DNA of 64,000 nucleotides from Mesorhizobium shangrilense (lineage in GTDB: Bacteria > Pseudomonadota > Alphaproteobacteria > Rhizobiales > Rhizobiaceae), in the NCBI RefSeq assembly GCF_028826155.1, contig NZ_JAQGPN010000001.1:62001-126000 (forward strand), read 5' to 3'. Positions 34,292 through 62,690 of the stretch are shown piece by piece; within the stretch, counting starts at the first letter, position 1, and each line of letters begins with the position of its first letter. The notes under the pieces were generated by a model that saw nothing but the letters and a program-made list of their open reading frames with translations, searched no databases and was not told where the DNA came from. Position numbers and translations under genes: made by a program.

Positions 34292-34323
34292 CGGGGCCGC
34301 GAACCATATTGGGTGCGGCCCCG
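34292..34323. terminator. Bidirectional hairpin between LysR gene and tctC
   Basis: CGGGGCCGC (34292-34300) and GCGGCCCCG (34315-34323) make a perfect 9-bp stem with a 14-nt loop, in the 55-bp gap between the two convergent genes. There is no clear U-run on either strand. Confidence 0.6.
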
Positions 34324-34334
34324 TCCGGATTGCC

Positions 34335-44782: not shown

Positions 44783-44802
44783 TGGTCGAAGGGGGAGGTA
44801 TC

Positions 44803-45600: not shown

Positions 45601-45634
45601 GGCATCTAGCGGCGCCCGCGACGAAGCGTCAGGT

Positions 45635-45783
45635 TGGCGCCGGAAACGGAAAGTCGGTGCCACGTATCAGTGCGAGAGCCGGGACGTTCCCTCCCCGCCC
45701 CACCCGGCTCTCCACTTGGCAGACCGCACCGTTTCCGGCGCCAGCATTGTGCGACCCGCCCTTGCCAAATTCGGGCGAAGGGC
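45635..45783 (+). other. Highly structured spacer between modA and modB
   Basis: Three hairpins are visible. An outer pair TGGCGCCGGAAACGG (45635-45649) and CCGTTTCCGGCGCCA (45729-45743) is a perfect 15-bp match. It encloses an inner pair GAGAGCCGGG (45674-45683) and CCCGGCTCTC (45703-45712). A third stem, GCCCTT...AAGGGC (45758-45783), follows. The 263-bp gap has no convincing gene. It may be a mobile palindromic element or an RNA element that lowers modBC expression relative to modA. Confidence 0.7.
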
Positions 45784-45863
45784 TTGAAAAGCGCGCGCAA
45801 TTGCTATGCCTTCTCGGCAGACCTCGCACCGCCACCACCGAACCCCTACGGCACGCATAAGAC

Positions 45864-49150: not shown

Positions 49151-50080
49151 TTGTCCAGCCGCAAAGTCATCATCACCTGCGCCGTCACCGGCTCCATCCA
49201 CACGCCATCGATGACGCCGCATCTTCCGGTGACCGCCGCGGAGATCGCCGACGCGGCCATCGGCGCGGCCGAGGCCGGCGCGGCGATCATCCACCTGCAT
49301 GCCCGCAAGCCCGAGACAGGCGAGCCGGATCAGTCGCTGGAGGCGTTCCGTCCGTTCCTCGGGGTCATCAAGCAGCGGGTCGGCGCCGTCCTCAACATCA
49401 CCACCGGCGGCGCCTCGACGATGACCATCGAGGAACGGCTGCAGCCGGCTCTCCACTTCCAGCCGGAGGTGGCCTCGCTCAACATGGGCACGATGAACTT
49501 CGGGCTGTTTCCGATGCTGGGGCGCTTCAAGGAGTTCAAGCATTCGTGGGAGCGCCCCTATCTCGAGGGTACGAAGAGCCGCATCTTCCGCAACACCTTC
49601 GAGGACATCGAGACGATCCTCACGCGCTGCGCCGACAACGACACGCGCTTCGAGATCGAATGCTACGACATCGGCCACCTCTACACCTGCGCGCATTTCG
49701 TCGAGCGCGGGCTGATCAAGCCGCCCTTCTTCATCCAGAGCGTGTTCGGCATCCTTGGCGGCATCGGCACGCATCCCGAGGACGTGGCCCACATGAAGCG
49801 CACCGCCGATCGCCTGTTCGGCGCGGACTATCGCTGGTCGGTGCTCGGCGCCGGACGCATGCAGATGCCGATCGCCATGCAGTCGGTGATCCTCGGCGGC
49901 AACGTGCGGGTCGGACTGGAGGATTCCATCTGGGCGGGCAAGGGTCGGCTGGCCGCCAGCAATGCCGAGCAGGTCGGCATCGCGCGCAAACTGATCGAGG
50001 ACCTCGGCATGGAGATCGCGACCCCCGAAGAGGCGCGCGCCATGCTGAACCTGAAAGGCGGCAGCAACGTCAACTTCTGA
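49151..50080 (+). CDS. BKACE family (3-keto-5-aminohexanoate cleavage-type) enzyme
   Basis: A 309-residue TIM-barrel enzyme of the DUF849/BKACE family. It condenses a beta-keto acid with acetyl-CoA or another acyl-CoA and cleaves it, using zinc. VIITCAVTGSIHTPSMTPHL at the start, IIHLHARKPETGEPDQS (zinc-binding His48 and His50), and GRMQMPIAMQSVILGGNVRV with GLEDSIW are the hallmarks. It uses a TTG start at 49151 after GAGGAAACC. The size and motifs fit well, but BKACE enzymes accept many beta-keto acids. It precedes the tandem DUF1185 genes by 189 bp and may serve the same pathway as the hydrolase operon downstream. Confidence 0.92.
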   Translation: MSSRKVIITCAVTGSIHTPSMTPHLPVTAAEIADAAIGAAEAGAAIIHLHARKPETGEPDQSLEAFRPFLGVIKQRVGAVLNITTGGASTMTIEERLQPALHFQPEVASLNMGTMNFGLFPMLGRFKEFKHSWERPYLEGTKSRIFRNTFEDIETILTRCADNDTRFEIECYDIGHLYTCAHFVERGLIKPPFFIQSVFGILGGIGTHPEDVAHMKRTADRLFGADYRWSVLGAGRMQMPIAMQSVILGGNVRVGLEDSIWAGKGRLAASNAEQVGIARKLIEDLGMEIATPEEARAMLNLKGGSNVNF

Positions 50081-50195
50081 TAGGGGCCGCCTGACGATTG
50101 CGGAGATGCGAGGCCCCCGCCGCCGCCGCGATGCAGTGAGGCCAGAGGGTGATGAAACGCCGCGTTTTCCTTCGCAATCCGCGGCCTCGCCTGCC

Positions 50196-50240
50196 TTGAC
50201 AGAAGCCGGCGCAGGCTAGATTGTTTGTACTCTAACAATC
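50196..50240 (+). promoter_or_regulatory. Promoter and palindromic operator of the DUF1185 pair
   Basis: A perfect TTGACA (50196-50201) is followed after 17 bp by GATTGT (50219-50224). That -10 position lies inside a perfect inverted repeat, GATTGTT (50219-50225) and AACAATC (50234-50240), spaced by 8 bp. The TTGT...ACAA form is common for MarR or GntR-type repressors; a MarR gene lies 2.6 kb away (52855-53379). Binding would block the polymerase. Confidence 0.65.
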
Positions 50241-50269
50241 GAGCTCATCGTCAAGGAACGAGTGCCACC

Positions 50270-50854
50270 ATGCCCAGCGTCGAAGTCCGCAAGTTCGTCA
50301 CCCAGGTCGAAGAGATCTGGCATGAGGGAGGCCCCGCGGCGGCCGCCCCGCTGCTCCGCGGCTCCATCGCAGCCGTCGTCAAAAACCCCTATGCCGGCCG
50401 CTACGTCGAGGAAATCACCAGCTTCATGGAAGACCTGAAGCCGCTCGGCCTCGACATGGCGAAGCGGCTCCTGGCTGCGCTCGGCGGGAATGTCGAGCGG
50501 ATCGAGGGCTACGGGAAAGGCGCCATCGTCGGCGCGGCGGGTGAACTCGAACACGGCGCGCTCTGGCACGTGCCCGGCGGATACGCCATGCGCGAGCTTC
50601 TCGGCGGCGCCAAGGCGATCGTTCCCTCCACCAAGAAAGTCGGCGGTCTGGGCGCGCAGATCGATATCCCGATCACGCACAAGGACGCCTCCTACGTGCG
50701 CAGCCATTTCGACGCCGTCGAGGTCCGCATCAGCGACGCGCCACGCGCCGACGAGCTCATGCTGGTTCTGGCCATGACTTGCGGCCCACGGGTGCATGCG
50801 CGCGCCGGCGGCCTGGCGGTTTCCGAGATCAAGGGAGAGGACGGATTGCGATGA
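50270..50854 (+). CDS. DUF1185 (amino acid synthesis family) protein, copy 1
   Basis: 194 residues beginning MPSVEVRKFVTQVEEIWHEG. Family segments are GGNVERIEGYGKGAIVGAAG, ELEHGALWHVPGG, PSTKKVGGLGAQIDIPITHK and the ending SEIKGEDGLR. DUF1185 is listed in databases as an amino acid synthesis family, but no enzyme activity is established that I can name. The ATG at 50270 is chosen because upstream residues have no family match. It overlaps the next gene, a paralogue of identical length, by 4 nt. An operator with a TTGACA promoter lies upstream. Confidence 0.85.
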   Translation: MPSVEVRKFVTQVEEIWHEGGPAAAAPLLRGSIAAVVKNPYAGRYVEEITSFMEDLKPLGLDMAKRLLAALGGNVERIEGYGKGAIVGAAGELEHGALWHVPGGYAMRELLGGAKAIVPSTKKVGGLGAQIDIPITHKDASYVRSHFDAVEVRISDAPRADELMLVLAMTCGPRVHARAGGLAVSEIKGEDGLR

Positions 50855-51435
50855 ACACTTCGATCCGCAAGATCGTCACCATCGTCGAGGAAACGCTGAT
50901 CGAGGGCGGCAAGGAGGTTTCACCTCCGACCCGCCGCGCGGCCGCCGTCGCCATCATCGACAATCCGTTTGCCGGCAAATATGTTGAAAACCTCGAGCCG
51001 CTGTTCGCTGTCGGCGAGGAGCTTGGCGGCCTGCTTGCGGAGCGCGCGGTCGCCGCGCTCGGCATTCCGGGCGAGAAGGTGGAAAGCTTCGGCAAGGCGG
51101 CTTGCGTCGGCGCAGAGGGCGAACTGGAGCATGCAGCTGCGCTCCTGCATCCCAAGCTCGGCGCACCGTTCCGCAAGGTGCTCGGCAAGGGCGCAGCGCT
51201 CATCCCCTCCTCCAAGAAGCGGGGTGGCCCCGGCACGCCGTTCGACATCCCGCTCGGCCACAAGGACGCCGCCTTTGTGCGGAGCCACTTCGATGGGATG
51301 GAAGTGCGCGTCAACGACGCGCCGCGCGAAAACGAGATCGCGGTGGCGATCGCCGTCACCGATTCCGGCCGCCCGCACCCGCGCGTCGGCGGGCTCCTGA
51401 AGAGCGAGATCAAGGGCGAAGACGGGCTGCGGTGA
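50851..51435 (+). CDS. DUF1185 (amino acid synthesis family) protein, copy 2
   Basis: 194 residues, the same length as copy 1 and clearly homologous along its whole length: KIVTIVEETLIEGG, ELEHAAALLHPKLGAPFRKV, PSSKKRGGPGTPFDIPLGHK, DAAFVRSHFDGMEVRVNDAP and the same SEIKGEDGLR-type ending. Sequence differs enough to suggest an old duplication and perhaps a heteromeric complex. Its ATG overlaps the stop of copy 1 (ATGA). A strong hairpin follows at 51464. Confidence 0.85.
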   Translation: MNTSIRKIVTIVEETLIEGGKEVSPPTRRAAAVAIIDNPFAGKYVENLEPLFAVGEELGGLLAERAVAALGIPGEKVESFGKAACVGAEGELEHAAALLHPKLGAPFRKVLGKGAALIPSSKKRGGPGTPFDIPLGHKDAAFVRSHFDGMEVRVNDAPRENEIAVAIAVTDSGRPHPRVGGLLKSEIKGEDGLR

Positions 51436-51463
51436 CGCACCCGACTGCGCCGATCGCTGAAAT

Positions 51464-51503
51464 GCAACAGGCCGGCGCCGCGGAAGCGACGCCGGCCTGT
51501 TGC
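51464..51503. terminator. Strong bidirectional terminator hairpin
   Basis: GCAACAGGCCGGCG (51464-51477) and CGCCGGCCTGTTGC (51490-51503) make a perfect 14-bp stem with a 12-nt loop between the convergent DUF1185 pair and the enamidase-like gene. There is no pronounced U-tract, but the stem is very stable. Confidence 0.75.
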
Positions 51504-51622
51504 GTCAGAAGGGGCTGAGAGCGCTTTGCTTCCGGTGCGTCTCGCCGGTTACGGCTGGAAATGGCAACGGGCGGCAGGGGATGACCAGGTCATTCCCCTC
51601 CGCGGTCCGCAAACCTATCGCG

Positions 51623-52822
51623 TCAGCTCCCGAACAGCTCCGGCATGACGCTCGACGGCGGCGTGTTGCGCGAGCGATGGGTGCGGACGATGCCGTCGAT
51701 GACGGTCATGCCGATGCCGGGGATGTCGCCCAGTTGTACGCTTTCCAGCAGGTTCTTGCCGGCGGAATGCTGGGCCTTGTCGAGCAGCACGAAGTCCGCA
51801 GCGCGGCCGACCTCGATCAGGCCGCAGTCCAGGTCGCGCATGCGTGCCGTGTTGCCGGTGGCGAAGCAGAAGGCGATCTCGGCCGGGATGTCGCCCAGCG
51901 AGGACAGCATCGAGACCATGCGGATTATGCCGAGCGGCTGCACGCCCGAGCCGGCGGGCCCGTCGGTGCCCAGGATGACGCGCTCGAGTTCCTTCATCTC
52001 CCTGGCGATGCGCAACGTGTAAAGGGCGGCGCGCTCGTTGCCGTTGTGGACCAGCTCCAGGCCGCGCTTGCAGCCTTCGCAGATGCAGCGGATCTGGTCG
52101 TCAGGCAGCGCCGTGTGGCCGCCATTGATATGGCCGATGACATCGGTATCGGCTGCCAGCACCACGTCCTTGTCGATCAGCCCGGAGCCGGGGATCGACG
52201 GGCCGCCGGTGTGGATCGTGCTCTGGATGCCGTACTTGCGCGCCCAGGCGACCATCTGGCGGGCGGTATCGGCATCCTTGACCGAGCCGAGGCCCACCTC
52301 GCCCAGCAGCTTGACGCCCGCCGCGGCCAGTTCCTTGAAATCGTCCTCGACCATGCCCTGCTCGATGACGGGTGCGCCGGCATGGACCTTGACGCCCGAG
52401 GGGCGGAAGGCTTCGAACATGCGCTGCGAGGTGATGGCGTGCGCCTTCAGGCCTACAATGTCGCGCGGACGTCCGGGCGTATGCACCTCGCCGGCGGAAA
52501 TCATGGTGGTGACGCCGCCATGCAGCGTGGAGTCGATCCAGGAGAGCTGGCTCTGGCGCGGCGTCCAGTCGCCCGCGACCGGATGCACGTGGCTGTCGAT
52601 CAGGCCCGGCGCGATCGCCGAGCCCTTGGCGTCGATGGTGGTCGTGGCGCCCTCGGTGTCCAGGTCCTTGAACCTGCCGACGGCGGTGATGCGGTCGTTG
52701 TCACAGACGATGGTGTCGGCGTCGAGGATGGGTTTCTCGATGGCGCCCGACAGCATCAGGCCGATGTTGCGGATGACCAGCCTGGTCGGCTTGCCGTCGC
52801 CGGTGGGAGCATCATGAGCCAT
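51623..52822 (-). CDS. Amidohydrolase, enamidase-like (6-oxo-tetrahydronicotinate hydrolase type)
   Basis: A 399-residue metal-dependent amidohydrolase. Visible metal ligands are DSHVH (His78, His80), the bridging glutamate in GEVGLGS (Glu175), HTGG (His204), HINGG (His231) and the catalytic Asp287 in GTDGPAG. From memory, the segments PGLIDSHVHPVAGDWTPRQ, TLHGGVTTMISAGE and PGISVV-like GDIPGIGMTVIDG closely follow enamidase of Eubacterium barkeri, which opens 1,4,5,6-tetrahydro-6-oxonicotinate to 2-formylglutarate and ammonia. A bridging Glu instead of carboxylated Lys also fits enamidase. It is the last gene of the nucleoside-hydrolase operon, 32 nt after marR. Confidence 0.82.
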   Translation of the reverse strand: MAHDAPTGDGKPTRLVIRNIGLMLSGAIEKPILDADTIVCDNDRITAVGRFKDLDTEGATTTIDAKGSAIAPGLIDSHVHPVAGDWTPRQSQLSWIDSTLHGGVTTMISAGEVHTPGRPRDIVGLKAHAITSQRMFEAFRPSGVKVHAGAPVIEQGMVEDDFKELAAAGVKLLGEVGLGSVKDADTARQMVAWARKYGIQSTIHTGGPSIPGSGLIDKDVVLAADTDVIGHINGGHTALPDDQIRCICEGCKRGLELVHNGNERAALYTLRIAREMKELERVILGTDGPAGSGVQPLGIIRMVSMLSSLGDIPAEIAFCFATGNTARMRDLDCGLIEVGRAADFVLLDKAQHSAGKNLLESVQLGDIPGIGMTVIDGIVRTHRSRNTPPSSVMPELFGS

Positions 52823-52854
52823 GGTCGATCCTTGCAGCTGCGTTCAGAAATGCG

Positions 52855-53379
52855 TCAGGCGAATTCGTCGTCACCGTCGCCGATCCGGTGGAGCAGCGAA
52901 AGAAGCGTCTGCTGTTCCTCGGAGGAGAGCGGCGCCAGCACCCGGCGCGCGACCTCCATGCTGTCGGCGAGGCGTTCGATCGCGTATCGATTGCCCTCGT
53001 CGGTCAGCTTGATCATGGCGAGCCTTTGGTCCTTCTTGGTCGGCCGCCGCTGGATGAGGCCGATCTTCAGAAGCTTGCGCACCACGATGCTGATCGTCGA
53101 GGGATCCATCGCGGTGAGCCGGCCGAGATGATTCTGCGACACCTCGCCATGCTTCAGCAGCGTCGCCAGCACGGCGACCTGCGTCGGGGTTAGGTCCTGC
53201 CCGCTCAACACCTGCTGGAAGCAGAAGGTGGCGCGCTGGTGCGCGCGCCGGATCATGTGCGCCGGATGCCTGCCGAGGTCGTAGCCGGACGCCTCGTAGA
53301 CGGCCAGCACCTCCGCCCGCGTCATCGGCGGCTTGTCAGCCGCACCGCTCTCCTGATCCGGCTTGGCGTTCAAGCTCAC
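52855..53379 (-). CDS. MarR-family transcriptional regulator
   Basis: 174 residues. A winged helix-turn-helix is visible (LTPTQVAVLATLLKHGEVSQ, HLGRLTAMDPSTISIVVRKL, then IGLIQRRPTKKDQRLAMIKL, the wing), with dimerisation helices at both ends. Its start overlaps the cysteine hydrolase stop by 4 nt, so it is embedded in the operon. MarR proteins often sense aromatic or heterocyclic acids and repress their own catabolic genes, as NicR does for nicotinate. A TTGT...ACAA palindrome near 50219 is a possible target; both points are inference. Confidence 0.9.
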   Translation of the reverse strand: MSLNAKPDQESGAADKPPMTRAEVLAVYEASGYDLGRHPAHMIRRAHQRATFCFQQVLSGQDLTPTQVAVLATLLKHGEVSQNHLGRLTAMDPSTISIVVRKLLKIGLIQRRPTKKDQRLAMIKLTDEGNRYAIERLADSMEVARRVLAPLSSEEQQTLLSLLHRIGDGDDEFA

Positions 53380-54020
53380 GCGGCGATGTCCATGTTCTCG
53401 ATGACCCCGCCCTTCGACAGGGCGGCGACCACGCTCTTGGCGTCGGTGACGATGCCGAAATGCGTGGAGATGTCGTAGAGCGTGCTTTCCTGCTCGCGCG
53501 GACCGGTGGCCGCGCAGCAGTCATGCGGCACGACGACCTCGTAACCGTTGAAGAAGGCGTCGTGGACGGTCGAGCGCACGCAGATATTGGTGACCACACC
53601 GAACACGATAACCTGGTCGACCATCATGTCCTTCAGCGTCACGTCGAGATCGGTCTGGAAGAACGACGAATAACGGTGCTTGTCTACGTGGATCTCGTCG
53701 TCGCGCGCGCCGAGGTCGTCGATGATCTCGACCGCCCAGGTGCCGGCTTCGCAATGCGGCGTCCGCTTCAGGAACTCGCGGTCGCGCCGCATGTTCTTGC
53801 GGTGGCTGTCATGCACCCAGATCACCGGGGCGCCCGCCTTGCGGGCTGCCTCGATGACGGCCAGCTGCGGCGGCACCAGCGTCTCGTAGCCGGGGAGCAC
53901 CATCTTGCCGCCCGGCTTGCAGAACTCGTTGATCATGTCGACCACGATCACCGCTGCGCGCTGCGGGTCGAGCGCGATGCGCTCAACATTCCGATGCGAG
54001 GAAAAGACATCTAAGGACAT
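53376..54020 (-). CDS. Isochorismatase-family cysteine hydrolase (amidase)
   Basis: 214 residues with the catalytic triad in place: Asp28 in VVDMINEF, Lys114 in VDKHRYSSF, and Cys147 in GVVTNICVRST preceded by the cis-peptide VVTN. This family includes nicotinamidase, maleamate amidohydrolase (NicF) and ureidoacrylate hydrolase (RutB), so an amide-cleaving step on a ring-opened heterocycle fits the neighbourhood. It lies 24 nt after a nucleoside hydrolase gene and overlaps marR by 4 nt. Confidence 0.9.
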   Translation of the reverse strand: MSLDVFSSHRNVERIALDPQRAAVIVVDMINEFCKPGGKMVLPGYETLVPPQLAVIEAARKAGAPVIWVHDSHRKNMRRDREFLKRTPHCEAGTWAVEIIDDLGARDDEIHVDKHRYSSFFQTDLDVTLKDMMVDQVIVFGVVTNICVRSTVHDAFFNGYEVVVPHDCCAATGPREQESTLYDISTHFGIVTDAKSVVAALSKGGVIENMDIAA

Positions 54021-54044
54021 CAGACGGCCTCCTGGACGTGTCGC

Positions 54045-54974
54045 TCAATCCCTGAGCAGGCTGTAGAGTAGATCGAAGAAGCGGTCGCTATCCACTTCAT
54101 ATGCGATGCTTGCGTTCGGTTTCTCGCCGCGCTCGTTCCAGAAGTCGGCAACGGTCGCGCCGAAGGAGTAACCCGCGGCCAGATTGACCCCGATATGCAC
54201 CGGCTTGGTGCGGATCAGGGTCGGATCGATCACGGCGGCGATGACCAGCGGATCGTGGAGCGCCCCGCCGACCCCCATCGAGTTGCGGTGAAGCTTCTCA
54301 TAGAACTTCAGCCAGTCGACGACAACCTTGCCGAGCGGGGAGTCGATCTTCTCAAGCTCGGCAAACTGCGGCGCCTCAACCAGCACCTGCATGGTGACGT
54401 CGAGACCGAGCATGGTGATCGGAATGCCGCTGTCGAGCACGATCTTCAGCGCTTCGGGATCGCAGAAGGCGTTGAATTCGGTCGGCGTGATGATCTCGCT
54501 CTTGCGGTAGAACACGCCGCCCATCCAGATCAGGTTCTTGATCTTGGACAGCACCTGCGGGTGCTTCAGCACCAAGAGGCCGATGTTGGTGAGTGGGCCC
54601 GTCGCAACCACCTGGATCGGCTCCGGCTGCGCAGCCAGCTTCTCGGCGAGAAAATCAACGGCGTGCTGGTCGACGACCTGCTTCTTCGCCGGCGGCAGGT
54701 AGGGCGAGCCTTCAAGGCCGCTTGGGCCGTCAGCGGTGCCGAGCACCAGCGGACGCGCCAACGGACGGTCGCAGCCCTGCGCCACCGGCACATCGTTCGC
54801 CCCGATGAACTCGAGGATGCGCAGGCAGTTCGCCGTGGTCTTCTCAAGCTCGGAATTGCCGCAGGTCGTCGTGATACCGAGGATCTCGATAGCCGGCGAA
54901 CGATGCGCCATGACCAGCGCGATGGCGTCATCGTGACCGGGGTCGCAATCGAAGAGGATCGGGGTGGCGGTCAT
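54045..54974 (-). CDS. Nucleoside hydrolase (ribonucleoside hydrolase type)
   Basis: 309 residues, IUNH family; cleaves the N-glycosidic bond of a nucleoside to ribose and free base using calcium. The DxDxxxDD metal site is intact: FDCDPGHDDA (Asp9, Asp11, Asp15, Asp16). Other signatures are GITTTCGNSELEKTTANCLR, VVATGPLTNIGLLV, WMGGVF and a C-terminal LHDPLVIAAVIDP. It resembles RihA/RihB pyrimidine-type enzymes, but the base preference cannot be read. It overlaps a second, more divergent nucleoside hydrolase gene by 4 nt. Confidence 0.92.
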   Translation of the reverse strand: MTATPILFDCDPGHDDAIALVMAHRSPAIEILGITTTCGNSELEKTTANCLRILEFIGANDVPVAQGCDRPLARPLVLGTADGPSGLEGSPYLPPAKKQVVDQHAVDFLAEKLAAQPEPIQVVATGPLTNIGLLVLKHPQVLSKIKNLIWMGGVFYRKSEIITPTEFNAFCDPEALKIVLDSGIPITMLGLDVTMQVLVEAPQFAELEKIDSPLGKVVVDWLKFYEKLHRNSMGVGGALHDPLVIAAVIDPTLIRTKPVHIGVNLAAGYSFGATVADFWNERGEKPNASIAYEVDSDRFFDLLYSLLRD

Positions 54975-55993
54975 GCTGCGTCTCCCGCACGCTCGTACTT
55001 CGTCATGGTATCCTTGAACATCTGCATGAAGCGGCGGCCGTCGATATCCGTGCAGATGCGGGTCGTCTTCGGCCCTCCGCCGGGGAGGATCTGGCGGCCG
55101 CGATAGGCCACCGTCTGGCCGCGCGCGATGCGCCCGTCGAGGACGACATCGACGAAGAGCGGTTCGGTCATGCGGCAGAGGTCAGGCTGGAACGCCAGCG
55201 CGACGGTGATGACGTCGTCCATCGGGAAGGCGACGAGGTCGAAGAACTCCCGCCAGATGTCGATGTAGATCGGGAACACGCGGTCGATCATGGCGACGAC
55301 CGCGTTGTCCTTGGCGACGGCGCGCATGTCGGCGAGGTCGTCGCGCGACATCATGCCGGTGGCCGCGCGGTTGTCCTCGCAGACGTCGAGCGGCACCAGG
55401 ATCTTGTCGATGTCGGCATTGAGCACGATGCGCGAGGCTTCCGGGTCGGCCCAGATGTTGTATTCGGTGACGGGCGTGATGTTGCCCGGCGTGGTGAAGG
55501 TGCCGCCGAGCACGACGAGGCGCTTGAGCAGCTTCGTCAGCCCGGGCTCCTGCAGCAGCGCCATCGCGGCGTTGGTGAGCGGCCCGGTGGTGACCAGCGT
55601 GATCTCGCCCGGATTGGCGCGCGCCATGTCGATGATGAAGTCGACGGCGTGCTTGTCGATCGCCTTGTGGGTCGGCTGCGGGGCCTTGGGGTTGAAGTCC
55701 TTCAGGCGGTCCCCGAAGCGGGCGATGAGGCGCTTCTCGAAATGCACCGGCGCTTCCATGTCGGCCTTGTCATGACCGACGATCGGACACCATGCGCCCG
55801 CCGCGACCGGAATGTCCTCACGGCCAGCCAGCGAAAGCGTGTTGAGCACGACATTGGTCACCTGCTCGATGCCGCCGGCCGCGCCGGTGACCGTGGTGAT
55901 GCCTTCCAGTTTCAGATGCGGTGACGCCGCGGCGAAGAGGACGGCGAGGATGTCGTCGCCCGCCGAATCGACGTCGAGAATGATGCGTTCCAT
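54971..55993 (-). CDS. Divergent nucleoside hydrolase family protein
   Basis: 340 residues, IUNH family. The metal site reads LDVDSAGDDILA (Asp7, Asp9, Asp13, Asp14): the acids are kept but the usual T and P of DTDPGxDD are V and S, an uncommon variant. Other parts are typical (GITTVTGAAGGIEQVTNVVL, LVTTGPLTNAAMALL, VVLGGTF) with MDDVITVALAFQP near the end. I prefer the ATG at 55991-55993 with AAGGGAAGAC before it; a GTG six codons earlier directly follows the permease stop. It may act on a modified nucleoside, complementing the standard enzyme next to it. Confidence 0.88.
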   Translation of the reverse strand: MERIILDVDSAGDDILAVLFAAASPHLKLEGITTVTGAAGGIEQVTNVVLNTLSLAGREDIPVAAGAWCPIVGHDKADMEAPVHFEKRLIARFGDRLKDFNPKAPQPTHKAIDKHAVDFIIDMARANPGEITLVTTGPLTNAAMALLQEPGLTKLLKRLVVLGGTFTTPGNITPVTEYNIWADPEASRIVLNADIDKILVPLDVCEDNRAATGMMSRDDLADMRAVAKDNAVVAMIDRVFPIYIDIWREFFDLVAFPMDDVITVALAFQPDLCRMTEPLFVDVVLDGRIARGQTVAYRGRQILPGGGPKTTRICTDIDGRRFMQMFKDTMTKYERAGDAA

Positions 55994-56011
55994 GTCTTCC
56001 CTTGAACTCAC

Positions 56012-56983
56012 TTACGATTTCGTCTCTGGCGCAGGCTTGACCGTCAGCACGCGCCGCATGCTGTCCAGCGTCTCCCTGATGATCTTCGGGCGAGCCCGAT
56101 AGGAGAGCGCGAAGAGCGCAGTGAGCGCCACGAGATAGGGCACCGCCAGCACCAGGTAGGACGAGACGCCGAAGGTCTGCAGACGTAGCGCCAGCGCATC
56201 GGAGAAGCCGAAGAGCAGGCAGCCGAGCAGGATCCGCCACGGATCGCCCGCCGAGAAGATGAGGATGGCGACGGCCATGAAGCCGCGGCCCGACGACATA
56301 TTCTCGGTGAACATCGTGGTGTAGCCGAGCGACAGATGAGCGCCGGCGAGGCCCGCCAGCAGGCCGCACAGCAGCGAGGCGGTATAGCGGATACGCGTGA
56401 TCGAGATGCCAAGCGCCTCGGCCGCCTCCGGCTTCTCGCCGACCACGCGGATATAGAGCCCCAGCTTGGTGCGCTTGTAGAAGAGGATCAGCAGCGGCAC
56501 CAGGATGAAGGCGACGTAGACCAGCGGCGTATAGCCGGAGATCAGCTGGCCGAACCAGCCGAGTTCCTTCGCAAAGGGCAGCTTCACCGCCGGCAGGCCC
56601 ACCAGGCCATGGCCGAAGATCGAGCCGCGCGTGCCGAAGATCGCCTTCATCAGCGAGATCGTCATGCCGCCTGCGAGGATGTTGAGCGCCAGGCCCACCA
56701 CCACCTCGTTCGCCTTGAAGGTGACGACGAGCAGCGCGAAGACATAGGCCAGCACCAGCGCAGCGAGCACCCCGCACAGCACGCCGATCCAGGGCGAGCC
56801 GAAGAAGATGGTGCCAATGACGGCGAAGAAGGCGCCGACCAGCATCTGGCCCTCGAGGCCGATGTTGAAGATGCCCGCCTTCGTGGTGAACGAACCGCCG
56901 AGCGCGACCAACAGGATCGGCGCCGTGGTGCGGAGCGTCGCGACGAAGAGCGAAACGTTGATGATGCGCTCTAGAATTTCCAC
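56012..56983 (-). CDS. Nucleoside-type ABC transporter permease 2
   Basis: 323 residues, nine or so helices, of the BPD_transp_2 family (NupQ/YufQ type). Recognisable segments are LVALGGSFTTKAGIFNIGLE then GQMLVGAF, a sequence shared with the partner permease, and VVGEKPEAAEALGISITRIR (ATPase contact). It overlaps the partner permease gene by 13 nt. Together they form the channel of the BMP-type importer encoded by the same operon. Confidence 0.92.
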   Translation of the reverse strand: MEILERIINVSLFVATLRTTAPILLVALGGSFTTKAGIFNIGLEGQMLVGAFFAVIGTIFFGSPWIGVLCGVLAALVLAYVFALLVVTFKANEVVVGLALNILAGGMTISLMKAIFGTRGSIFGHGLVGLPAVKLPFAKELGWFGQLISGYTPLVYVAFILVPLLILFYKRTKLGLYIRVVGEKPEAAEALGISITRIRYTASLLCGLLAGLAGAHLSLGYTTMFTENMSSGRGFMAVAILIFSAGDPWRILLGCLLFGFSDALALRLQTFGVSSYLVLAVPYLVALTALFALSYRARPKIIRETLDSMRRVLTVKPAPETKS

Positions 56984-58014
56984 CGGCGCTCCCCTGCGGT
57001 GCTGTCGCCGGCCTTGCGGCGGATGGTGACCTGGGCGGATACGGCGAGGATGATCAGCGCCTGCACCACCGTGATGATCTCGCGCGAGGCCGTTGTGTCG
57101 ACCTCCAGCATCAGCGAGCCGCTGCGCAGCGCGCCGAAGAAGATGGCGGTGAAGATGGTGCCGATCGGATTGCCGTTGGCGAGCAGCGCGGCGATGACGC
57201 CGTCGAAGCCGAAGCCTGGCGCAAAACCTTCCATGAAGCGGTGGTGGACGCCGAGGGCCTCGATGCCGCCGGCCAGGCCGCCGACCGCGCCCGACACCAG
57301 CAGGACGAAGAACACCTGCCGCTTGATGTCGATGCCGCCATACTCGGCGAACTTCGGATTGGCGCCCATCTCGGAGACCGAGTAGCCGCGCGACGTGCGC
57401 AGGAAGAAGTAGTGCACAGCGACAGCAAGCACGAGCCCGATGATCAGGCCCCAGTTCAACCGCGAGAACGAGAACAGCTCCGGCAGGTAGGCCGACTCAA
57501 AGATCGGCGGCGTTTCGGACTGGCCGCCAGGCTTCTTGAAGACGCTGATCGTGAGGTAGGACGTCATCAGGATCGCGACGTAGTTCGCAAGGATGGTCGA
57601 GACCACCTCGTTGGCGTTGTAGCGGGCGCGGAAGAAGGCCGGGATCGCAATCCACGCCATGCCGGCCAGCGCCGCCACGACGATCGCGACCAGCATGTGG
57701 AGGATCGGCGGCATGCCGAACGAGAAGCCGACCCAGGTGGCTGCGAAGCCCCCCATGAAGAGCTGCCCCTCGATGCCGATGTTGAACAGGCCGCCGCGCA
57801 GGGAAATGCACGCGGCGATGCCGCAGACCAGGATCGGCGTCGCCTGGAGCAGCGTCCCGGCGATGCGTTCCGGACTGCCGAAGGCGCCGCGAAGCAGCGT
57901 ATCGAGGACGTGCAGCGGGTTCTCGTCGATTGCGAGGATCACGAGCGCGCCAAGGATCAGCGCCAACAGGATCGCCAGTGCCTGGCCTGAAAGGGCCGCC
58001 ATGCGGTCGCTCAT
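56971..58014 (-). CDS. Nucleoside-type ABC transporter permease 1
   Basis: 347 residues of the NupP/YufP type. It contains GIAACISLRGGLFNIGIEGQ and then LFMGGFAATWVG, and the contact loop VSEMGANPKFAEYGGIDIKR. About ten helices. Its stop region overlaps the second permease start by 13 nt and its start overlaps the ATPase stop by 4 nt. This gene order (ATPase, permease, permease) is the standard one for nucleoside importers such as NupNOPQ. Confidence 0.92.
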   Translation of the reverse strand: MSDRMAALSGQALAILLALILGALVILAIDENPLHVLDTLLRGAFGSPERIAGTLLQATPILVCGIAACISLRGGLFNIGIEGQLFMGGFAATWVGFSFGMPPILHMLVAIVVAALAGMAWIAIPAFFRARYNANEVVSTILANYVAILMTSYLTISVFKKPGGQSETPPIFESAYLPELFSFSRLNWGLIIGLVLAVAVHYFFLRTSRGYSVSEMGANPKFAEYGGIDIKRQVFFVLLVSGAVGGLAGGIEALGVHHRFMEGFAPGFGFDGVIAALLANGNPIGTIFTAIFFGALRSGSLMLEVDTTASREIITVVQALIILAVSAQVTIRRKAGDSTAGERRWKF

Positions 58015-59552
58015 TGCGCCACCTCCGCCCGAGCGGCCGCTTCATCGCGGCTTGCGCCTGCCATCATGAAGCCAAGCTCCTCTTCGCTTACGTTATTGCC
58101 GTCGAGCTCGCCCATGATGCGCCCCGCGAACATCACGAGGATGCGATCGGCGAGCGCGATCAGTTCGTCGAGTTGCACGGAGATCAGCAGAATGGCCCGC
58201 CCGTCCTCGCGCTGTTTCATGATCTCGGCGTGGATTGCCTCCTGCGCGCCGATGTCGACGCCGCGCGTCGGCTGGTCGATGAGCAGGAAGCGGGGGTCGC
58301 CCGAAAATTCGCGGGCCAGCACGACCTTCTGGATGTTGCCGCCCGACAGGCTCTTCACCGGCGAGTCCGCGCTGCGGGTACGGATGTCGAAGCGCTTGAT
58401 CAGTGTCTCGGTCTGCTCGTGCAGGTAGCGGCGCGAGATGATGCCCCGGCGCGACCAGGGTTCCTGGTCCTGCCGCCCCATCAGCACGTTCTGCGCGATC
58501 GAGGCGTTGCGGTTGACGCCGCGCACCATGCGGTCGCCCGGCACGTGGGCGAGCCCCGCATGGCGGATCTCTCGCGTCGACAGGCCATTCAGCGGCTTTC
58601 CGTCGAGGCTGACCAGCCCGTGGCTCTCGGGGCGAAGGCCGCTGATCACTTCGGCGAGTTCGGTCTGGCCGTTGCCGGCGACGCCGGCGATGCCGACGAT
58701 CTCGCCCGCCCTCACGTCGAAGGACACGCCCGTCACCGCCGGGAGCCGGCGGTCGTCGCGCGCCCAAAGGTCGCGGACCTGGAGCACGCTCGGACCGTTC
58801 TGGGCCTCGCGCGGTCGCCGATCGAAGCTGACGGTGCGGCCGACCATCATCTGGACCAGTTCCGACTTGCTGAGCCCCTTGGTCGGGCGGGTGTCTATGA
58901 CCTTGCCGTGGCGCAGCACGGTGACCGAATCCGACACCTCCATCACCTCCTCGAGGTGGTGCGAGATGAAGATCACGGTCATGCCCTGAGCGACGAAGCC
59001 GCGCAGCGTCTGGAAAAGTTCGCGGCTTTCCTGCGGCGTCAGCACCGCGGTCGGCTCGTCGAGGATGATGGTGCGCGCGCCGCGAACCAGAACCTTCAGG
59101 ATTTCGATGCGCTGCTCGATGCCGACGGACAGCAGGCCGACGCGCTCGGTGGCGTCCACCTGAAGCCCGAACTGCTTTGACAACTCGGCGGTCTTGGCGA
59201 TCTGGGCGGCATGGTCGATCATGCCGTTCCGCACGATCTCCATGCCGAGAAACACGTTTTCGGCCACGCTCAGCGACGGCACCAGCTTGAAATGCTGGTG
59301 CACCATGCCGATCCCGGCGTCGATGGCGACCGAGGGATTGGGCAGCACCAGCTGCTTGCCGTCGATCCAGATCTCGCCCTCGTCGGGCTGCAGCAGCCCG
59401 AAAAGGATGTTCATCAGCGTGGTCTTGCCGGCGCCGTTCTCGCCAATGATGGCGTGAATCTTGCCGCGCTCGACGGCGAGGTTCACGTCCTCGTTCGCGA
59501 CGAACGCGCCGAAGCGCTTGGTTATGGATTTCAGTTCGATGGCAAGGGGCAT
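58011..59552 (-). CDS. Nucleoside-type ABC transporter ATP-binding protein, double domain
   Basis: 513 residues with two ABC cassettes in tandem, as in NupO/YufO and sugar importers of the RbsA type. First cassette: GENGAGKTTLMNILFGLLQP (Walker A), LSVGIEQRIEILKVLVRGAR, TIILDEPTAVLTP. Second cassette: GVAGNGQTELAEVISGLRPE (degenerate Walker A), LSGGNIQKVVLAREF, LLIDQPTRGVDIGA. The second Walker A lacks the lysine, usual for this class. It follows the binding-protein gene after 67 bp holding a hairpin. Confidence 0.94.
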   Translation of the reverse strand: MPLAIELKSITKRFGAFVANEDVNLAVERGKIHAIIGENGAGKTTLMNILFGLLQPDEGEIWIDGKQLVLPNPSVAIDAGIGMVHQHFKLVPSLSVAENVFLGMEIVRNGMIDHAAQIAKTAELSKQFGLQVDATERVGLLSVGIEQRIEILKVLVRGARTIILDEPTAVLTPQESRELFQTLRGFVAQGMTVIFISHHLEEVMEVSDSVTVLRHGKVIDTRPTKGLSKSELVQMMVGRTVSFDRRPREAQNGPSVLQVRDLWARDDRRLPAVTGVSFDVRAGEIVGIAGVAGNGQTELAEVISGLRPESHGLVSLDGKPLNGLSTREIRHAGLAHVPGDRMVRGVNRNASIAQNVLMGRQDQEPWSRRGIISRRYLHEQTETLIKRFDIRTRSADSPVKSLSGGNIQKVVLAREFSGDPRFLLIDQPTRGVDIGAQEAIHAEIMKQREDGRAILLISVQLDELIALADRILVMFAGRIMGELDGNNVSEEELGFMMAGASRDEAAARAEVAQ

Positions 59553-59570
59553 CGGACGATCTTCCGCGCG

Positions 59571-59600
59571 TCCGCCCCCTTCGCGGTGGAAGGGGGCGGA
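59571..59600 (-). terminator. Intercistronic hairpin after the binding-protein gene
   Basis: TCCGCCCCCTT (59571-59581) and AAGGGGGCGGA (59590-59600) form a perfect 11-bp stem with an 8-nt loop, between the binding-protein gene and the ATPase gene. A second stem GCGGAT/ATCCGC (59596-59610) shares bases with it, so the two exclude each other. It may keep the binding-protein message more abundant. Confidence 0.65.
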
Positions 59601-59619
59601 TTGGATCCGCGCTTTCCTG

Positions 59620-60630
59620 TTACTTTACGGTATCGACAACGACCTTGCCGGAGATCACGTCCGCCTTGGCGGCCTCGACCTTGGCGAGCACATCGGCGGG
59701 GACCTTGTCGGCCACGTCGGGGCAGATCAGCAGCTCGACGCCGCCCGACTTGAGGTCGTAGGTGTAGGTGGCGCCGGGCGTGATGCCCTTGCCGTCGACC
59801 ACGTCCTTGACCAGGCTGTAGACCGCGACGTCGGCGTGCTTCAGCATGCTGGCCATGACCGCGCCAGGCGCGACCGGGCACTGGTCGATGTCGACGCCAA
59901 ACGAGTACTTGCCGGCGGCCTTGCTGGCCTGCAGCACGCCCTCGCCCGTCGGGCCGGCGACGTTGTAGACCATGTCGGAACCCTGGCCGTAGAGCGCCAT
60001 GGTCAGTTCGCTGCCCTTGGCCGGATCGTCGAAGGTGCCGGCAAAGACGACGTCGACGCGGACATCCGGCGCGACATACTTGGCGCCCTGCTCGTAGCCG
60101 GCCAGGAAGTCGCGGATGACCGGGATGTCGCGGCCGCCAACGAAGCCGATGGCCTTGCCGTCGCCGAGGCCTTCGACCTCGCTGCCCTTCTCGGCCATCG
60201 CCGCGCCGAGCGCGCCGACGAGGAAGGAGCCCTGGTTCTGGGCGAAGTTGGCGTAGGAAATCGTCTTGGAATCAAGAACGCCGTCGATGAAGACGAAGCG
60301 CGTGTCGGGATAGGCAGCGGACGCCTTGGTCAGCGCGTCGACCAGCTCCCAGCCCATCACGAAGACGACATCGTACTCGCCGCTCTTGGCGACGTTGTTG
60401 AACTGCTCCTCATAGTCGAGCGCGCGGTTGCCCGTGTCGATGAGCTTGACCTTAACGCCGAGATCCTTCTCGGCCTTCTTCAGACCCTCGACGATGGAGA
60501 TGCCGAAGCCCTGGGCGAAGTAGCCCGAGATGGCTGCGACGTTGACGTCCTTGGCGAAGGCGGAGGTGCTGGCCAGCGCGAGCAGGGAGGCGCCACACAG
60601 GGACATGAAACGACCGGAACGAGCGAACAT
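59620..60630 (-). CDS. BMP-family ABC transporter substrate-binding protein (nucleoside-type)
   Basis: About 336 residues. I chose the ATG at 60628-60630: AGAGGG precedes it and the product starts with a good signal peptide (MSLCGASLLALASTSAFA, cleavage before KDVNVAAISG). An ATG 33 nt upstream is also possible. The mature protein is of the BMP/Med type (GFGISIVEGLKKAEKDLGVK, YDVVFVMGWELVDALTKASA, GFVGGRDIPVIRDFLAGYEQ). There is no lipobox Cys, so it is a soluble periplasmic protein. Relatives bind purine nucleosides. First gene of the nine-gene operon. Confidence 0.9.
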   Translation of the reverse strand: MFARSGRFMSLCGASLLALASTSAFAKDVNVAAISGYFAQGFGISIVEGLKKAEKDLGVKVKLIDTGNRALDYEEQFNNVAKSGEYDVVFVMGWELVDALTKASAAYPDTRFVFIDGVLDSKTISYANFAQNQGSFLVGALGAAMAEKGSEVEGLGDGKAIGFVGGRDIPVIRDFLAGYEQGAKYVAPDVRVDVVFAGTFDDPAKGSELTMALYGQGSDMVYNVAGPTGEGVLQASKAAGKYSFGVDIDQCPVAPGAVMASMLKHADVAVYSLVKDVVDGKGITPGATYTYDLKSGGVELLICPDVADKVPADVLAKVEAAKADVISGKVVVDTVK

Positions 60631-60704
60631 TCGGATTACCCTCTGGGTTAGTGTTTGGTTCATTGGCCATCCTGGTCCGCACCGTTCGCAGAGGCGATCG
60701 CCAG

Positions 60705-60752
60705 ATCGTTGATGGTCATACAATCGTGATCTGGAAATTGTCGGCTTGTCAA
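60705..60752 (-). promoter_or_regulatory. Promoter/operator module 1 for the nucleoside-transport operon
   Basis: On the minus strand TTGACA (60752-60747) is followed after exactly 17 bp by a 25-bp box (60729-60705) that begins TCACGATTGTATGACC and ends ATCAACGAT. The same TTGACA, spacer length and box occur in the opposite direction at 60817-60864. The box lies where the -10 and start site should be, so it is likely an operator. Confidence 0.7.
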
Positions 60753-60816
60753 TCCGGAAACTCAGACCCTCGATCTTCGCATCAACACTTTTGGACGCAG
60801 CGAGCCGTCTTCCCGA

Positions 60817-60864
60817 TTGACAAACGGCCTGCCGCGCGGTCACGATCATATGACCATCAACGAT
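60817..60864 (+). promoter_or_regulatory. Promoter/operator module 2 for the epimerase-SDR operon
   Basis: TTGACA (60817-60822), a 17-bp spacer and a 25-bp box (60840-60864) that begins TCACGATCATATGACC and ends ATCAACGAT. The box differs from module 1 at only two positions while the spacer differs widely, so the box and TTGACA are conserved by selection. It points toward the epimerase gene at 61007. The remaining bases of the roughly 376-bp gap show no gene. Confidence 0.7.
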
Positions 60865-61006
60865 CTCGTCGACTGTCAACACGGCAGCAGGCCAGGACGG
60901 AATGCAGCTACGGCGCCACCGGCAAAACGCGGCGGCGACTTCGCCGCGTTGGCGTCATCAGGTCGCCGGCGACACAAAATGACTTTCAATCACTAGCCAG
61001 GTAAAC

Positions 61007-61849
61007 ATGCGCACCATCGTCACTGGATCAAGCGGCCTCCTGGGGCGGCACGTCGCTGCGGCGCTCACCGAGGCGGGGCACACGGTGCTCGGCCTCGACG
61101 CAGCGCCCGCACCCGCCGGCGCTTCGTGGCAGCACGTCACGATCGACCTCACCGACTTCGGCCAAACGATGCAGCTCGTCCGCGACGCCGAGGCGGTCGT
61201 GCACATCGCGGCGATCCCGCGCCCCACAGGGCTGCCGCCGGTCCAGGTGTTCCAGACCAACATGGCGGCCTGCTATAACGTCGTCGAGGCAGCCGTTCTG
61301 AGTGGAGCAAAGCGGATCGTCTATGCCTCATCGATGAGCGTACTCGGCTACCCCTTCTTCGAGCAGCCGGTCGTACCGACCTACCTCCCCTTCGATTCCA
61401 GGCATCCTGTCGCGCCGCAAGACGCCTATGCCCTGTCCAAATGGCTCGGCGAGGAGCTCGTGCAGTCCGCGATCCTCAGGCGTCCGGGACTGTCGGCGGT
61501 CAGCCTGCGCATGCCCTGGATACAGACGCCGGAGACATTCCCGCGCGACGTGGTCGAGCGCCGCCGCCACGCCGAATTGGTCGCACGCGACCTGTGGGCC
61601 TATCTCGATGCCCGCGATGCCGGCCAGGCGTTCGTTTCGGCGGTGGAACGACCCTTGCAAGGCCACCATCGCATGTTCATCAGCGCCGCCGACACATTTA
61701 TGGAGACGGAGACGCAGGCACTGGTTGCAGCCGCCTATCCGTCGGCCGAAATCCGCAAGCCGCTGGCGGACCACGCCACCGTGTTCGACCTCTCCGAAGC
61801 CCGCGACGTTCTGGGTTTTGAGCCGCGCCATGTCTGGCGCGATTACTAA
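61007..61849 (+). CDS. NAD-dependent epimerase/dehydratase family protein
   Basis: 280 residues, extended-SDR fold. TGSSGLLGRH (6-15) binds NAD; HIAAIPRPTG, a catalytic SSMSV and YALSKWLGEEL (YxxxK) follow. It could be a sugar epimerase, uronate dehydrogenase-like enzyme or lactone-forming dehydrogenase; the sequence does not decide. The gene is divergent from the nucleoside operon, shares its operator, and precedes an SDR gene by 10 nt. It may act on the sugar freed from the imported nucleoside. Confidence 0.85.
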   Translation: MRTIVTGSSGLLGRHVAAALTEAGHTVLGLDAAPAPAGASWQHVTIDLTDFGQTMQLVRDAEAVVHIAAIPRPTGLPPVQVFQTNMAACYNVVEAAVLSGAKRIVYASSMSVLGYPFFEQPVVPTYLPFDSRHPVAPQDAYALSKWLGEELVQSAILRRPGLSAVSLRMPWIQTPETFPRDVVERRRHAELVARDLWAYLDARDAGQAFVSAVERPLQGHHRMFISAADTFMETETQALVAAAYPSAEIRKPLADHATVFDLSEARDVLGFEPRHVWRDY

Positions 61850-61859
61850 GGAGCATTCC

Positions 61860-62690
61860 ATGAACAATCTGATCGGACGGCGCTTCGCCGACAAAGTCGC
61901 GCTGGTGACCGGCGGAGCCGGCGCGATCGGCTCGGCCGCCGTGCGGCGATTCGCGGCCGAGGGCGCGCGCGTCGTCATCGCCGACCGCAACGAAGCGGCC
62001 GCCGCGGCGCTTGCCCACGAACTGGCGGAGACCGGCGCAGAGGCGCTCGCCGTCACGGCGGACGTCACCTCCGAAGCCGACGTCCAGGCCCTCGTCGAGA
62101 AGGCCCAGGCGCGCTTCGGCCGTATCGCCGTGCTCTTCAACAATGCCGGCATCTCCGGCAAGGTCGCGCCCGTTTACGAGCTGTCGCCCGACGACTGGGA
62201 CGACATCATCCGCATCAACCTGCGCGGCATCTTCCTTGTCCAGCGCGCCGTCCTGCGCGCCATGATCGACAGCAAGGTTCGCGGCAGCGTGGTCAACATG
62301 GGATCGTCCATGGCCGGCTGGGACGTGCTGTCGGGCGGCGCCGGCTATGCGGCGAGCAAGCACGCCGTGGTCGGGCTCACCCGCATCGCGGCCCTCGACG
62401 CCGCGCCCTATGGCATCCGCGTCAACGCCATCTGCCCTGGCGTCATCGAGACGCGCCTGGGCGTCCCGTCGGGCGACGACGCCGAGTACCGCGCCGGCAT
62501 CGAGCGCTTCTCCAACCGCATCCCGCTGCGCCGCATCGGCGAGCCTGACGACGTGGCCGCCGCCGTCGCCTTCCTCGCCTCCGCGGAGGCGCGGCACGTC
62601 ACCGGCGTGGACTGGCTGATCGACGGCGGGCAGACGCTGCAGAGCTGGGCCAACGCGCCCGAGGCGACCGCCTATCCGCGGCTGGTGTGA
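61860..62690 (+). CDS. SDR-family oxidoreductase
   Basis: 276 residues. Classical SDR: VALVTGGAGAIGSAAVRRFA (about 13-32), NNAGISGKVAPVY, a catalytic serine in VVNMGSSMAGW, YAASKHAVVGLTRIAALDA, and CPGVIETRLG. An AAGGAGCATTCC site precedes the ATG at 61860. Last gene of the two-gene operon with the epimerase-like enzyme. Likely oxidises a sugar or hydroxy acid; the substrate is unknown. Confidence 0.92.
   Translation: MNNLIGRRFADKVALVTGGAGAIGSAAVRRFAAEGARVVIADRNEAAAAALAHELAETGAEALAVTADVTSEADVQALVEKAQARFGRIAVLFNNAGISGKVAPVYELSPDDWDDIIRINLRGIFLVQRAVLRAMIDSKVRGSVVNMGSSMAGWDVLSGGAGYAASKHAVVGLTRIAALDAAPYGIRVNAICPGVIETRLGVPSGDDAEYRAGIERFSNRIPLRRIGEPDDVAAAVAFLASAEARHVTGVDWLIDGGQTLQSWANAPEATAYPRLV

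Follow-up and report, generated by a model that had tools for sequence, protein, structure and literature searches.

The window, i.e., the whole stretch of 64,000 nucleotides of Mesorhizobium shangrilense DNA analyzed here, carries genes for a BMP-type ABC importer, two nucleoside hydrolases (NH1 and NH2), an isochorismatase-fold cysteine hydrolase (ISO), a MarR-family regulator, an enamidase (ENA), two AA_synth (DUF1185) proteins, and an epimerase-SDR pair. This arrangement is not unique to the window but is a conserved locus, and the grouping of its genes exceeds chance. On balance, we favor the view that the locus encodes a regulated pathway by which a nucleoside with a pyridine-type (nicotinamide-derived) base is catabolized; all of its reactions are predicted. 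If true, this would connect the uptake of nucleosides with the enamidase branch of vitamin B3 degradation, place the poorly understood AA_synth family in another substrate context, and give a metabolic fate to NAD(P)H hydrates, which are damage products. The host is a soil bacterium, and the genes are maintained jointly in many relatives of nodule bacteria.

Gene content and conservation of the locus

The gene families that a sequence-only reading had named in the window were all confirmed by Pfam matches over the cut-off, comprising BKACE, two AA_synth (PF06684), amidohydrolase, MarR, isochorismatase, two IU_nuc_hydro, two permeases, ATPase, Bmp, Epimerase, and SDR, and the named genes have intact reading frames with no internal stops (Table 1). 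The statement that most genes of the minus-strand operon overlap by 4 nt was overstated, because the distances between its genes are 67, -4, -13, 0, -4, 24, -4, and 32 nt, with 4-nt overlaps at three of the eight junctions. The AA_synth gene starts were corrected to 50270 and 50851. For the BMP gene, a start at 60630, as given by the sequence-only reading, or at 60606 is more probable than the longer ORF, which extends to 60882.

Table 1. Features of the locus in the window
Feature	Position	Strand	Evidence
BKACE, neighbor, not core	49151..50080	+	NF053538, 530 bits vs cut-off 430
MarR-type operator TTGTTTGTACTCTAACAA (predicted), precedes AA_synth a	50221..50238	no strand	exact TTGTT-N8-AACAA; 29.9 bits
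AA_synth a (DUF1185)	50270..50854	+	Pfam; fold of PDB 3byq
AA_synth b (DUF1185)	50851..51435	+	Pfam 2e-74
ENA, enamidase of nicotinate-pathway clade	51623..52822	-	PDB 2vun, E 2e-105; tree
MarR-family regulator, proposed local repressor	52855..53379	-	Pfam
ISO, isochorismatase-fold cysteine hydrolase, proposed carboxamide amidase	53376..54020	-	Pfam 2e-44
NH1, nucleoside hydrolase with usual HD motif	54045..54974	-	Pfam 8e-90
NH2, nucleoside hydrolase, Met/Leu replacing leaving-group His	54971..56011	-	Pfam 3e-73
ABC importer permease 2	56012..56983	-	Pfam BPD_transp_2
ABC importer permease 1	56971..58014	-	Pfam BPD_transp_2
ABC importer ATPase, two ABC domains	58011..59552	-	Pfam
BMP-type (PnrA-like) substrate-binding protein	59620..60630	-	Pfam Bmp 5e-53; PDB relatives Lbp, TmpC, BmpD
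Weaker operator-like site, BMP gene/epimerase gene interval	60706..60723	no strand	20.3 bits
Epimerase-family (extended SDR) oxidoreductase	61007..61849	+	Pfam 6e-25
Classical SDR	61860..62690	+	nearest solved relatives are glucose 1-dehydrogenases

NH2 was found in 18 of the 297 genomes of the family, the window genome included. ISO and the epimerase gene are linked to NH2 in all 18 genomes, AA_synth is present in all 18 loci, and ENA is linked to NH2 in 15 (14 of the 17 other genomes); in the remaining three loci, a HyuA-type gene stands in place of ENA, with HyuB beside it in the single locus read. The MarR gene occurs in all 17 other loci, NH2, NH1, ISO, MarR, importer, and AA_synth recur jointly in those 17 genomes, and the common gene order is kept in 13 of the 17 loci fetched. 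These counts bear out the co-occurrence of the families in other genomes that had been proposed as a check. They also speak against random loss of the enamidase or DUF1185 genes from homologous operons, named beforehand as grounds for abandoning the proposal, because ENA or the HyuA-type gene occupies every locus and AA_synth is never missing. The interpretation itself holds insofar as one conserved set combines import of a nucleoside, cleavage of its glycosidic bond, an amidase-type hydrolase, and an enamidase, but its beta-keto acid cleavage step is unsupported, because BKACE was found in none of the 17 other NH2 loci; two further genomes of the genus have BKACE next to ENA.

In four NH2 genomes, intervening genes separate ISO from the epimerase gene, and in the one genome read they are of the sugar-ABC type, which fits a sugar role. 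One locus that lacks NH genes (L107) has the epimerase gene as well. The NH2 gene of one locus (L122) contains an in-frame stop. In these scans, tblastn matches were dropped if they covered less than half of the query (one scan) or less than 40% (the others, including that for NH2 loci). L001 and L002 were left out of the gene clustering. L005 and the G003 loci L105 and L106, whose contigs are equal in length, are probably one genome.

Enzymes and operator of the locus

The window amidohydrolase is a full-length relative of enamidase (residues 14 to 391). Its HVH, EVGLG, HTGG, HINGG, and D motifs align with the HxH, E, H, H, and D metal-site motifs of the Eubacterium barkeri enamidase. ENA proteins fall into two clades, both 42 to 49% identical to the E. 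barkeri enzyme, with which 112 positions fixed in both clades (L125 left out of this comparison) are shared. The locus-type ENA of L107 scores 365 bits with enamidase versus at most 31.2 bits with dihydroorotases and dihydropyrimidinase. In a tree of 33 chosen ENA loci and the window, the window ENA falls in the nicotinate clade, and by this placement the usual ENA type of the locus is replaced in the window by the nicotinate type. Since the window ENA belongs to the nicotinate clade yet lies in an operon with the NH and ISO genes, the two ENA types seem to be exchangeable. The predicted activity of the window ENA is the hydrolysis of 1,4,5,6-tetrahydro-6-oxonicotinate (THON) to 2-formylglutarate.

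The Bmp domain, ABC permeases, and ATPase together constitute a BMP-type importer, which is predicted to bind and import a nucleoside. The N-terminal Ca-binding motif DxDxxxDD is present as DCDPGHDD in NH1 and DVDSAGDD in NH2, and each is invariant across 18 rows. NH1 has a His before the last Ca-binding Asp (HD) in 18 of 18 loci, as is typical of group I, and NH2 lacks this group I feature, with Met or Leu at the position of the leaving-group His in 18 of 18 loci; among the 120 database matches listed for NH2 relatives, out of 310, 119 have Met or Leu there. Sinorhizobium medicae WSM419 carries an NH2 relative on a plasmid, and in strain ml29 the annotated neighboring genes form a set of the HyuA type. 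The role of the leaving-group His in nucleoside hydrolases is described in PMC8910321. ISO scores 120 bits with the RutB ureidoacrylate amidohydrolase and 53 bits with the nicotinamidase PncA, below the NCBIfam equivalog cut-offs of 378 and 174, respectively.

The AA_synth proteins reach the Pfam gathering score and share the 3byq fold. After matches with stops or fewer than 170 residues were dropped, 51 were kept, 27 of which were aligned with the window sequences. AA_synth a falls in the half of the tree that holds paralogue a and is most similar (76% identity) to a copy from a nucleoside locus, and AA_synth b groups with the ENA-only loci L005 and L006; lineages a and b each have nicotinate-type and nucleoside-locus members. 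In PMC7913881, the AA_synth relative TgnF is described as aiding the oxidation of a semialdehyde during trigonelline degradation, and such an effect was not seen for that study's DUF1185 protein HcdD.

The operator preceding AA_synth a is the sole exact copy of TTGTT-N8-AACAA in the 64 kb, and the site between the BMP and epimerase genes is the second best in the window. The exact operator precedes the BMP gene in 12 of 18 loci, versus 0.005 expected, and the motif at 10 bits or more lies upstream of ENA in 48 of 80 ENA loci, versus 15 of 800 shuffles; at 10 bits, it is missing in the other 32, L005 and L006 included. A one-mismatch operator scan of the genome gave the control level. The locus has ENA, AA_synth, and its operator type in common with the nicotinate cluster.

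Independence from 6-hydroxynicotinate reductase

A homologue of 6-hydroxynicotinate reductase (HnR) is present in all 20 ENA genomes without NH2, versus 6 of the 15 with NH2 (none in nine; Fisher p 7e-5, which is overstated because the genomes are related). No HnR match appeared even at E 0.01 in 12 HnR-negative NH2 genomes, and one positive control was recovered. The share of 6 of 15 differs little from the background in the family (105 of 297 genomes). Because HnR always accompanies ENA without NH2 and is often missing with NH2, it appears that the ring has been reduced before it is taken up, and an enamidase in genomes without HnR offers a clean comparative test. Within the window locus, neither HnR nor a Mo-containing nicotinate dehydrogenase, which mark a reductive nicotinate cluster, was found. 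The only HnR match of the window genome is at C1:519 kb, and of its nine MoCoBD_2 matches, all outside the window, one lies beside HnR at 521 kb. Because HnR and this Mo hydroxylase are 0.4 Mb from the locus in the same genome, the window ENA may serve that distant route.

Proposed pathway and its alternatives

In the proposed pathway, the BMP-ABC importer would take up the nucleoside, NH1 and NH2 would cleave the N-glycosidic bond, ISO would hydrolyze the carboxamide, and ENA would open the ring of THON, yielding 2-formylglutarate and ammonia. AA_synth a and b would help convert the formyl product to glutarate semialdehyde or glutarate, and MarR would repress the gene set. The epimerase/SDR pair would oxidize either the ribose or, from 6-hydroxy to 6-oxo, the hemiaminal of the ring. 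As ring reduction inside the cell would be unneeded, we infer that the most likely substrates are nucleosides derived from NAD(P)H in its hydrated or reduced form. More tentatively, and with doubt prevailing, Rhizobiaceae might possess a dedicated route for dead NAD(P)H that needs no ring-reducing enzyme. The hydrated-NADH nucleosides (6-hydroxy-1,4,5,6-tetrahydronicotinamide riboside with its epimers and anomers) would be imported, the epimerase/SDR pair would oxidize their hemiaminal, giving the lactam, two chemically distinct hydrolases would remove the sugar, and deamidation would precede ring opening by an enamidase that nicotinate catabolism also uses.

ISO is nearest to the RutB and N-carbamoylsarcosine amidase types, and ureidoacrylate, biuret, and carbamoyl hydrolases score closer than nicotinamidases, which better fits a ureide. 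The substrate could accordingly be a dihydropyrimidine or hydantoin nucleoside (e.g., from tRNA dihydrouridine), from which NH would free a cyclic ureide, ENA or HyuAB would open it, and ISO would remove the carbamoyl group. HyuA-type genes, which are classical for hydantoin and oxoproline lactams, replace ENA in 3 of 18 loci, and independence from HnR fits equally. We nevertheless consider a ureide unlikely, as the L107 ENA scores favor enamidase over the dihydroorotases and dihydropyrimidinase, nicotinate-type loci have the same AA_synth lineages and operator type, and a nicotinate-clade ENA substitutes for the usual one in the window.

A slightly less likely alternative is that the cell imports and cleaves the riboside of nicotinamide or nicotinate and feeds its base into the ordinary nicotinate route via the distant Mo hydroxylase and HnR, both of which the window genome has. 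The lack of HnR in 9 of 15 ENA+NH2 genomes and its near-background frequency in these argue against this, although the yeast NH URH1 cuts nicotinamide riboside (PMC8910321) and a cationic pyridinium riboside would allow an NH2 without the leaving-group His. It is very improbable that an ordinary nucleoside scavenging operon adjoins unrelated nicotinate genes by chance: 15 of 18 loci combine ENA and AA_synth with NH2 and ISO, and a single operator type recurs at the promoters of these genes, even though the side with ENA, AA_synth b, and BKACE in the window differs in ancestry from the NH side.

Creatinine/hydantoin and Rut/Pyd pyrimidine routes open a cyclic amide and then use an isochorismatase-fold hydrolase. 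The HyuA-type gene of three variant loci resembles them, whereas the enamidase-type ENA, AA_synth, MarR operator, and importer set differ. Trigonelline breakdown differs in its oxygenase ring cleavage, N-methyl substrate, and absence of nucleoside steps, and the NAXD and NAXE enzyme families of NAD(P)HX repair differ from those of the locus. A literature search covering titles, abstract openings, and selected passages, with subscription papers mostly outside its scope, found no published description of this gene set and no breakdown route for NAD(P)H hydrates. The trigonelline pathway (tgn, Acinetobacter baylyi) likewise has an AA_synth-family protein at the semialdehyde stage (PMC7913881), and NAD(P)HX repair (PMC11715087) would handle the same damaged ring but mends the dinucleotide, whereas the proposed pathway is one of breakdown. 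The reductive nicotinate pathway (E. barkeri; Azorhizobium caulinodans/Bradyrhizobium cluster) shares the enamidase, AA_synth lineages, MarR, operator type, and an ABC importer (PMC3511419); compared with it, the locus is without HnR (as are 9 of 15 ENA+NH2 genomes), UPF0280, and Mo hydroxylase and adds the BMP importer, two nucleoside hydrolases, ISO, and the epimerase-SDR pair.

Gene content and conservation of the nucleoside locus

The gene families named in the sequence-only reading are all real in the window (bases 62001 to 126000 of a 4.8-Mb contig; genome, 5.5 Mb), with Pfam matches to the four window features tabulated here and to MarR, an isochorismatase-fold cysteine hydrolase (ISO), two nucleoside hydrolases (NH1 and NH2), two permeases, a double ATPase, the Bmp substrate-binding protein (BMP), an Epimerase-family protein, and an SDR. 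No gene of this set has an internal stop, and 4-nt overlaps, which that reading had ascribed to most genes, occur at three of the eight junctions in the minus-strand operon.

Features in the window and in the 6-hydroxynicotinate reductase (HnR) cluster of the same genome
Feature	Position	Strand	Evidence
BKACE	49151-50080	+	Pfam
AA_synth/DUF1185, copy a	50270-50854	+	Pfam
AA_synth/DUF1185, copy b	50851-51435	+	Pfam
Enamidase-like amidohydrolase (ENA)	51623-52822	-	Pfam
HnR-like reductase, UPF0280, MarR, ferredoxin reductase, fused 2Fe-2S/Mo hydroxylase (961 aa), FAD subunit	L102:8913-16670 (own genome, contig C1, ~517-525 kb)

Among 297 Rhizobiaceae genomes, 35 have a match for ENA (E 1e-100 or better), 18 for NH2 (1e-60), and 21 for ISO (1e-50); in a search of 376 genomes of the class, NH2 was not found outside the genome studied here. 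By comparison of places on the same contig, ISO lies within ~14 kb of NH2 in 18/18 genomes, and ENA lies within ~15 kb of it in 15. The epimerase gene is present in all 18, ~7 kb or less from ISO; the interval holds additional genes in four, and the one of these that was read (L112) has genes for a sugar-type binding protein, a TIM-barrel protein, and a permease. All 17 NH2 loci other than the window were fetched, and 13 share the order ISO, MarR, and ENA; AA_synth b and a on the opposite strand; and BMP, ATPase, permeases, NH2, and NH1, with the SDR-epimerase pair divergent from ISO wherever it falls inside the fetched stretch. In three loci (L121 to L123), which have the gene order of the window and a single AA_synth gene, a HyuA-type gene replaces ENA (by Pfam for L121; HyuB was seen in L122), and the same replacement appears in the annotation of an S. 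medicae plasmid. The variant loci L107, L124, and L125 lack BMP and NH genes and have an importer of the LIV type, and L119 carries both sets. BKACE is absent from all 17 loci. The NH2 gene of L122 (11366-12352, draft genome) has an in-frame stop, possibly a broken gene or a draft error, and L107:10750-14900, adjoining a locus-type ENA, encodes a 184-aa protein without a Pfam match, an FAD oxidoreductase, and a HyuA protein.

Two enamidase settings and their relation to HnR

In 80 compared ENA loci (ENA identity, 81 to 94%; mostly Bradyrhizobium), no BMP or NH gene was found within up to 10 kb on each side. At L013, the ENA neighbors encode a LIV importer, AA_synth, UPF0280, a 485-aa protein, a ferredoxin reductase, MarR, and a 2Fe-2S Mo-hydroxylase subunit. 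The 485-aa protein was provisionally taken as HnR because the nicotinate cluster of Azorhizobium and Bradyrhizobium, as outlined in an excerpt of PMC3511419, contains HnR, an importer, and two unknown proteins. HnR so assigned by context occurs in 105 of the 297 genomes. It is present in 20/20 ENA genomes without NH2 versus 6/15 with NH2 (Fisher P = 7e-5 among the 35, uncorrected for kinship), and a repeated search at E 0.01 recovered it in the control genome G054 and in none of the 12 HnR-negative NH2 genomes (9 with ENA and 3 with HyuA). Since HnR is missing from many genomes having both ENA and NH2, the enamidase linked to NH genes is independent of HnR. The ring thus seems to be reduced already when it reaches the cell's enamidase, although a different, unknown reductase may act instead. 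HnR matches without an enamidase match occur in 79/297 genomes, and HnR-like reductases may thus have a second, unassigned use. A second isochorismatase-fold gene (L102:16865-17464) adjoins the HnR cluster of the studied genome.

In the ENA tree (34 rows), one side (SH-aLRT, 100) holds the 14 other ENA-NH2 loci and L107, and the other holds the nicotinate-type ENAs, deep among which the window ENA is placed beside L005 and L104 of its genus. Identity to the Eubacterium barkeri enamidase (2vun) is 42 to 49% in both clades; 161 positions are fixed alike in both, 112 of these also in 2vun, and 18 are fixed differently. The window protein matches 2vun over its full length (E 2e-105; next solved relative, 8e-06). 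AA_synth comprises two paralogue lineages, each with nicotinate-type and nucleoside-locus members mostly on separate branches; window copy b groups with L005/L006, and copy a has no close partner, its best identity being 76%, to a nucleoside-locus copy. BKACE adjoins ENA in L005/L106 (probably one genome, the contigs being equally long) and in L104. Because ENA, AA_synth b, and BKACE match ENA loci of the genus, the window seems to contain such an ENA-BKACE locus joined to the nucleoside locus. The operon is otherwise intact, suggesting that a nicotinate-type ENA can do the job of the nucleoside-locus ENA, and this points to the same ring substrate for both types. No second full ENA was found in the genome. 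However, given its HnR and Mo hydroxylase, the single ENA may serve both the nucleoside locus and that route.

Operators, enzyme features, and the candidate substrate

The palindrome TTGTT-N8-AACAA precedes the BMP gene in 12/18 loci versus a mean of 0.005 in 1,000 mononucleotide shuffles, the loci being related. Its single exact occurrence in the window (50221-50238) precedes AA_synth a; a weaker palindrome lies at 60706, between the BMP and epimerase genes. These sites rank first and second with a weight matrix that was built without the former and whose training sites from other loci include one with the letters of the latter. The matrix reaches at least 10 bits upstream of ENA in 48/80 ENA loci, most of them Bradyrhizobium, versus 15/800 dinucleotide shuffles; L005, L006, and L073 score low. 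This operator type, common to both locus kinds, suggests related regulators that would sense related compounds.

The residue preceding the last Ca-binding Asp is His in NH1 in 18/18 loci, and in NH2 it is Met or Leu in 18/18 and in 119 of the 120 database matches listed (of 310). According to an excerpt of PMC8910321, group I nucleoside hydrolases use this His to protonate the leaving base; with it replaced, the base cut by NH2 probably either leaves without such assistance or is assisted in another way. ISO falls below the cutoffs for RutB (120 versus 378 bits) and nicotinamidase (53 versus 174 bits). Uronate dehydrogenases are among the solved relatives of the epimerase protein, and glucose 1-dehydrogenases lead the list for the SDR. 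Such dehydrogenases oxidize cyclic hemiacetals, and the target of the pair could be a hemiaminal, the nitrogen analogue, with ribose as the plain alternative.

Taken together, the gene set, ENA, HnR, enzyme, and operator evidence, read from sequence, favors a pyridine-type nucleoside whose base would enter nicotinate breakdown at the step catalyzed by the enamidase. A cyclic ureide nucleoside is the strongest alternative, in view of the nearest kin of ISO and of HyuA in the variant loci. For the pyridine-type nucleoside, the simplest natural source bringing in an already reduced ring would be hydrated NAD(P)H, whose nucleosides are candidate substrates; R, S, and cyclic hydrates are described in an excerpt of PMC11715087.

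Elsewhere in the window, a CoxG-family gene follows the SDR gene (62880-63335) and has no match among the 17 other NH2 loci. A solute-binding protein and an ABC ATPase with a TOBE domain (44782-47647) are of the molybdate-transporter type by domain content, and tripartite TctA/TctC transporter genes with galactarate/altronate dehydratase, Ldh_2, and ketopantoate-reductase-like genes (26374-35279) likely form a sugar-acid region.
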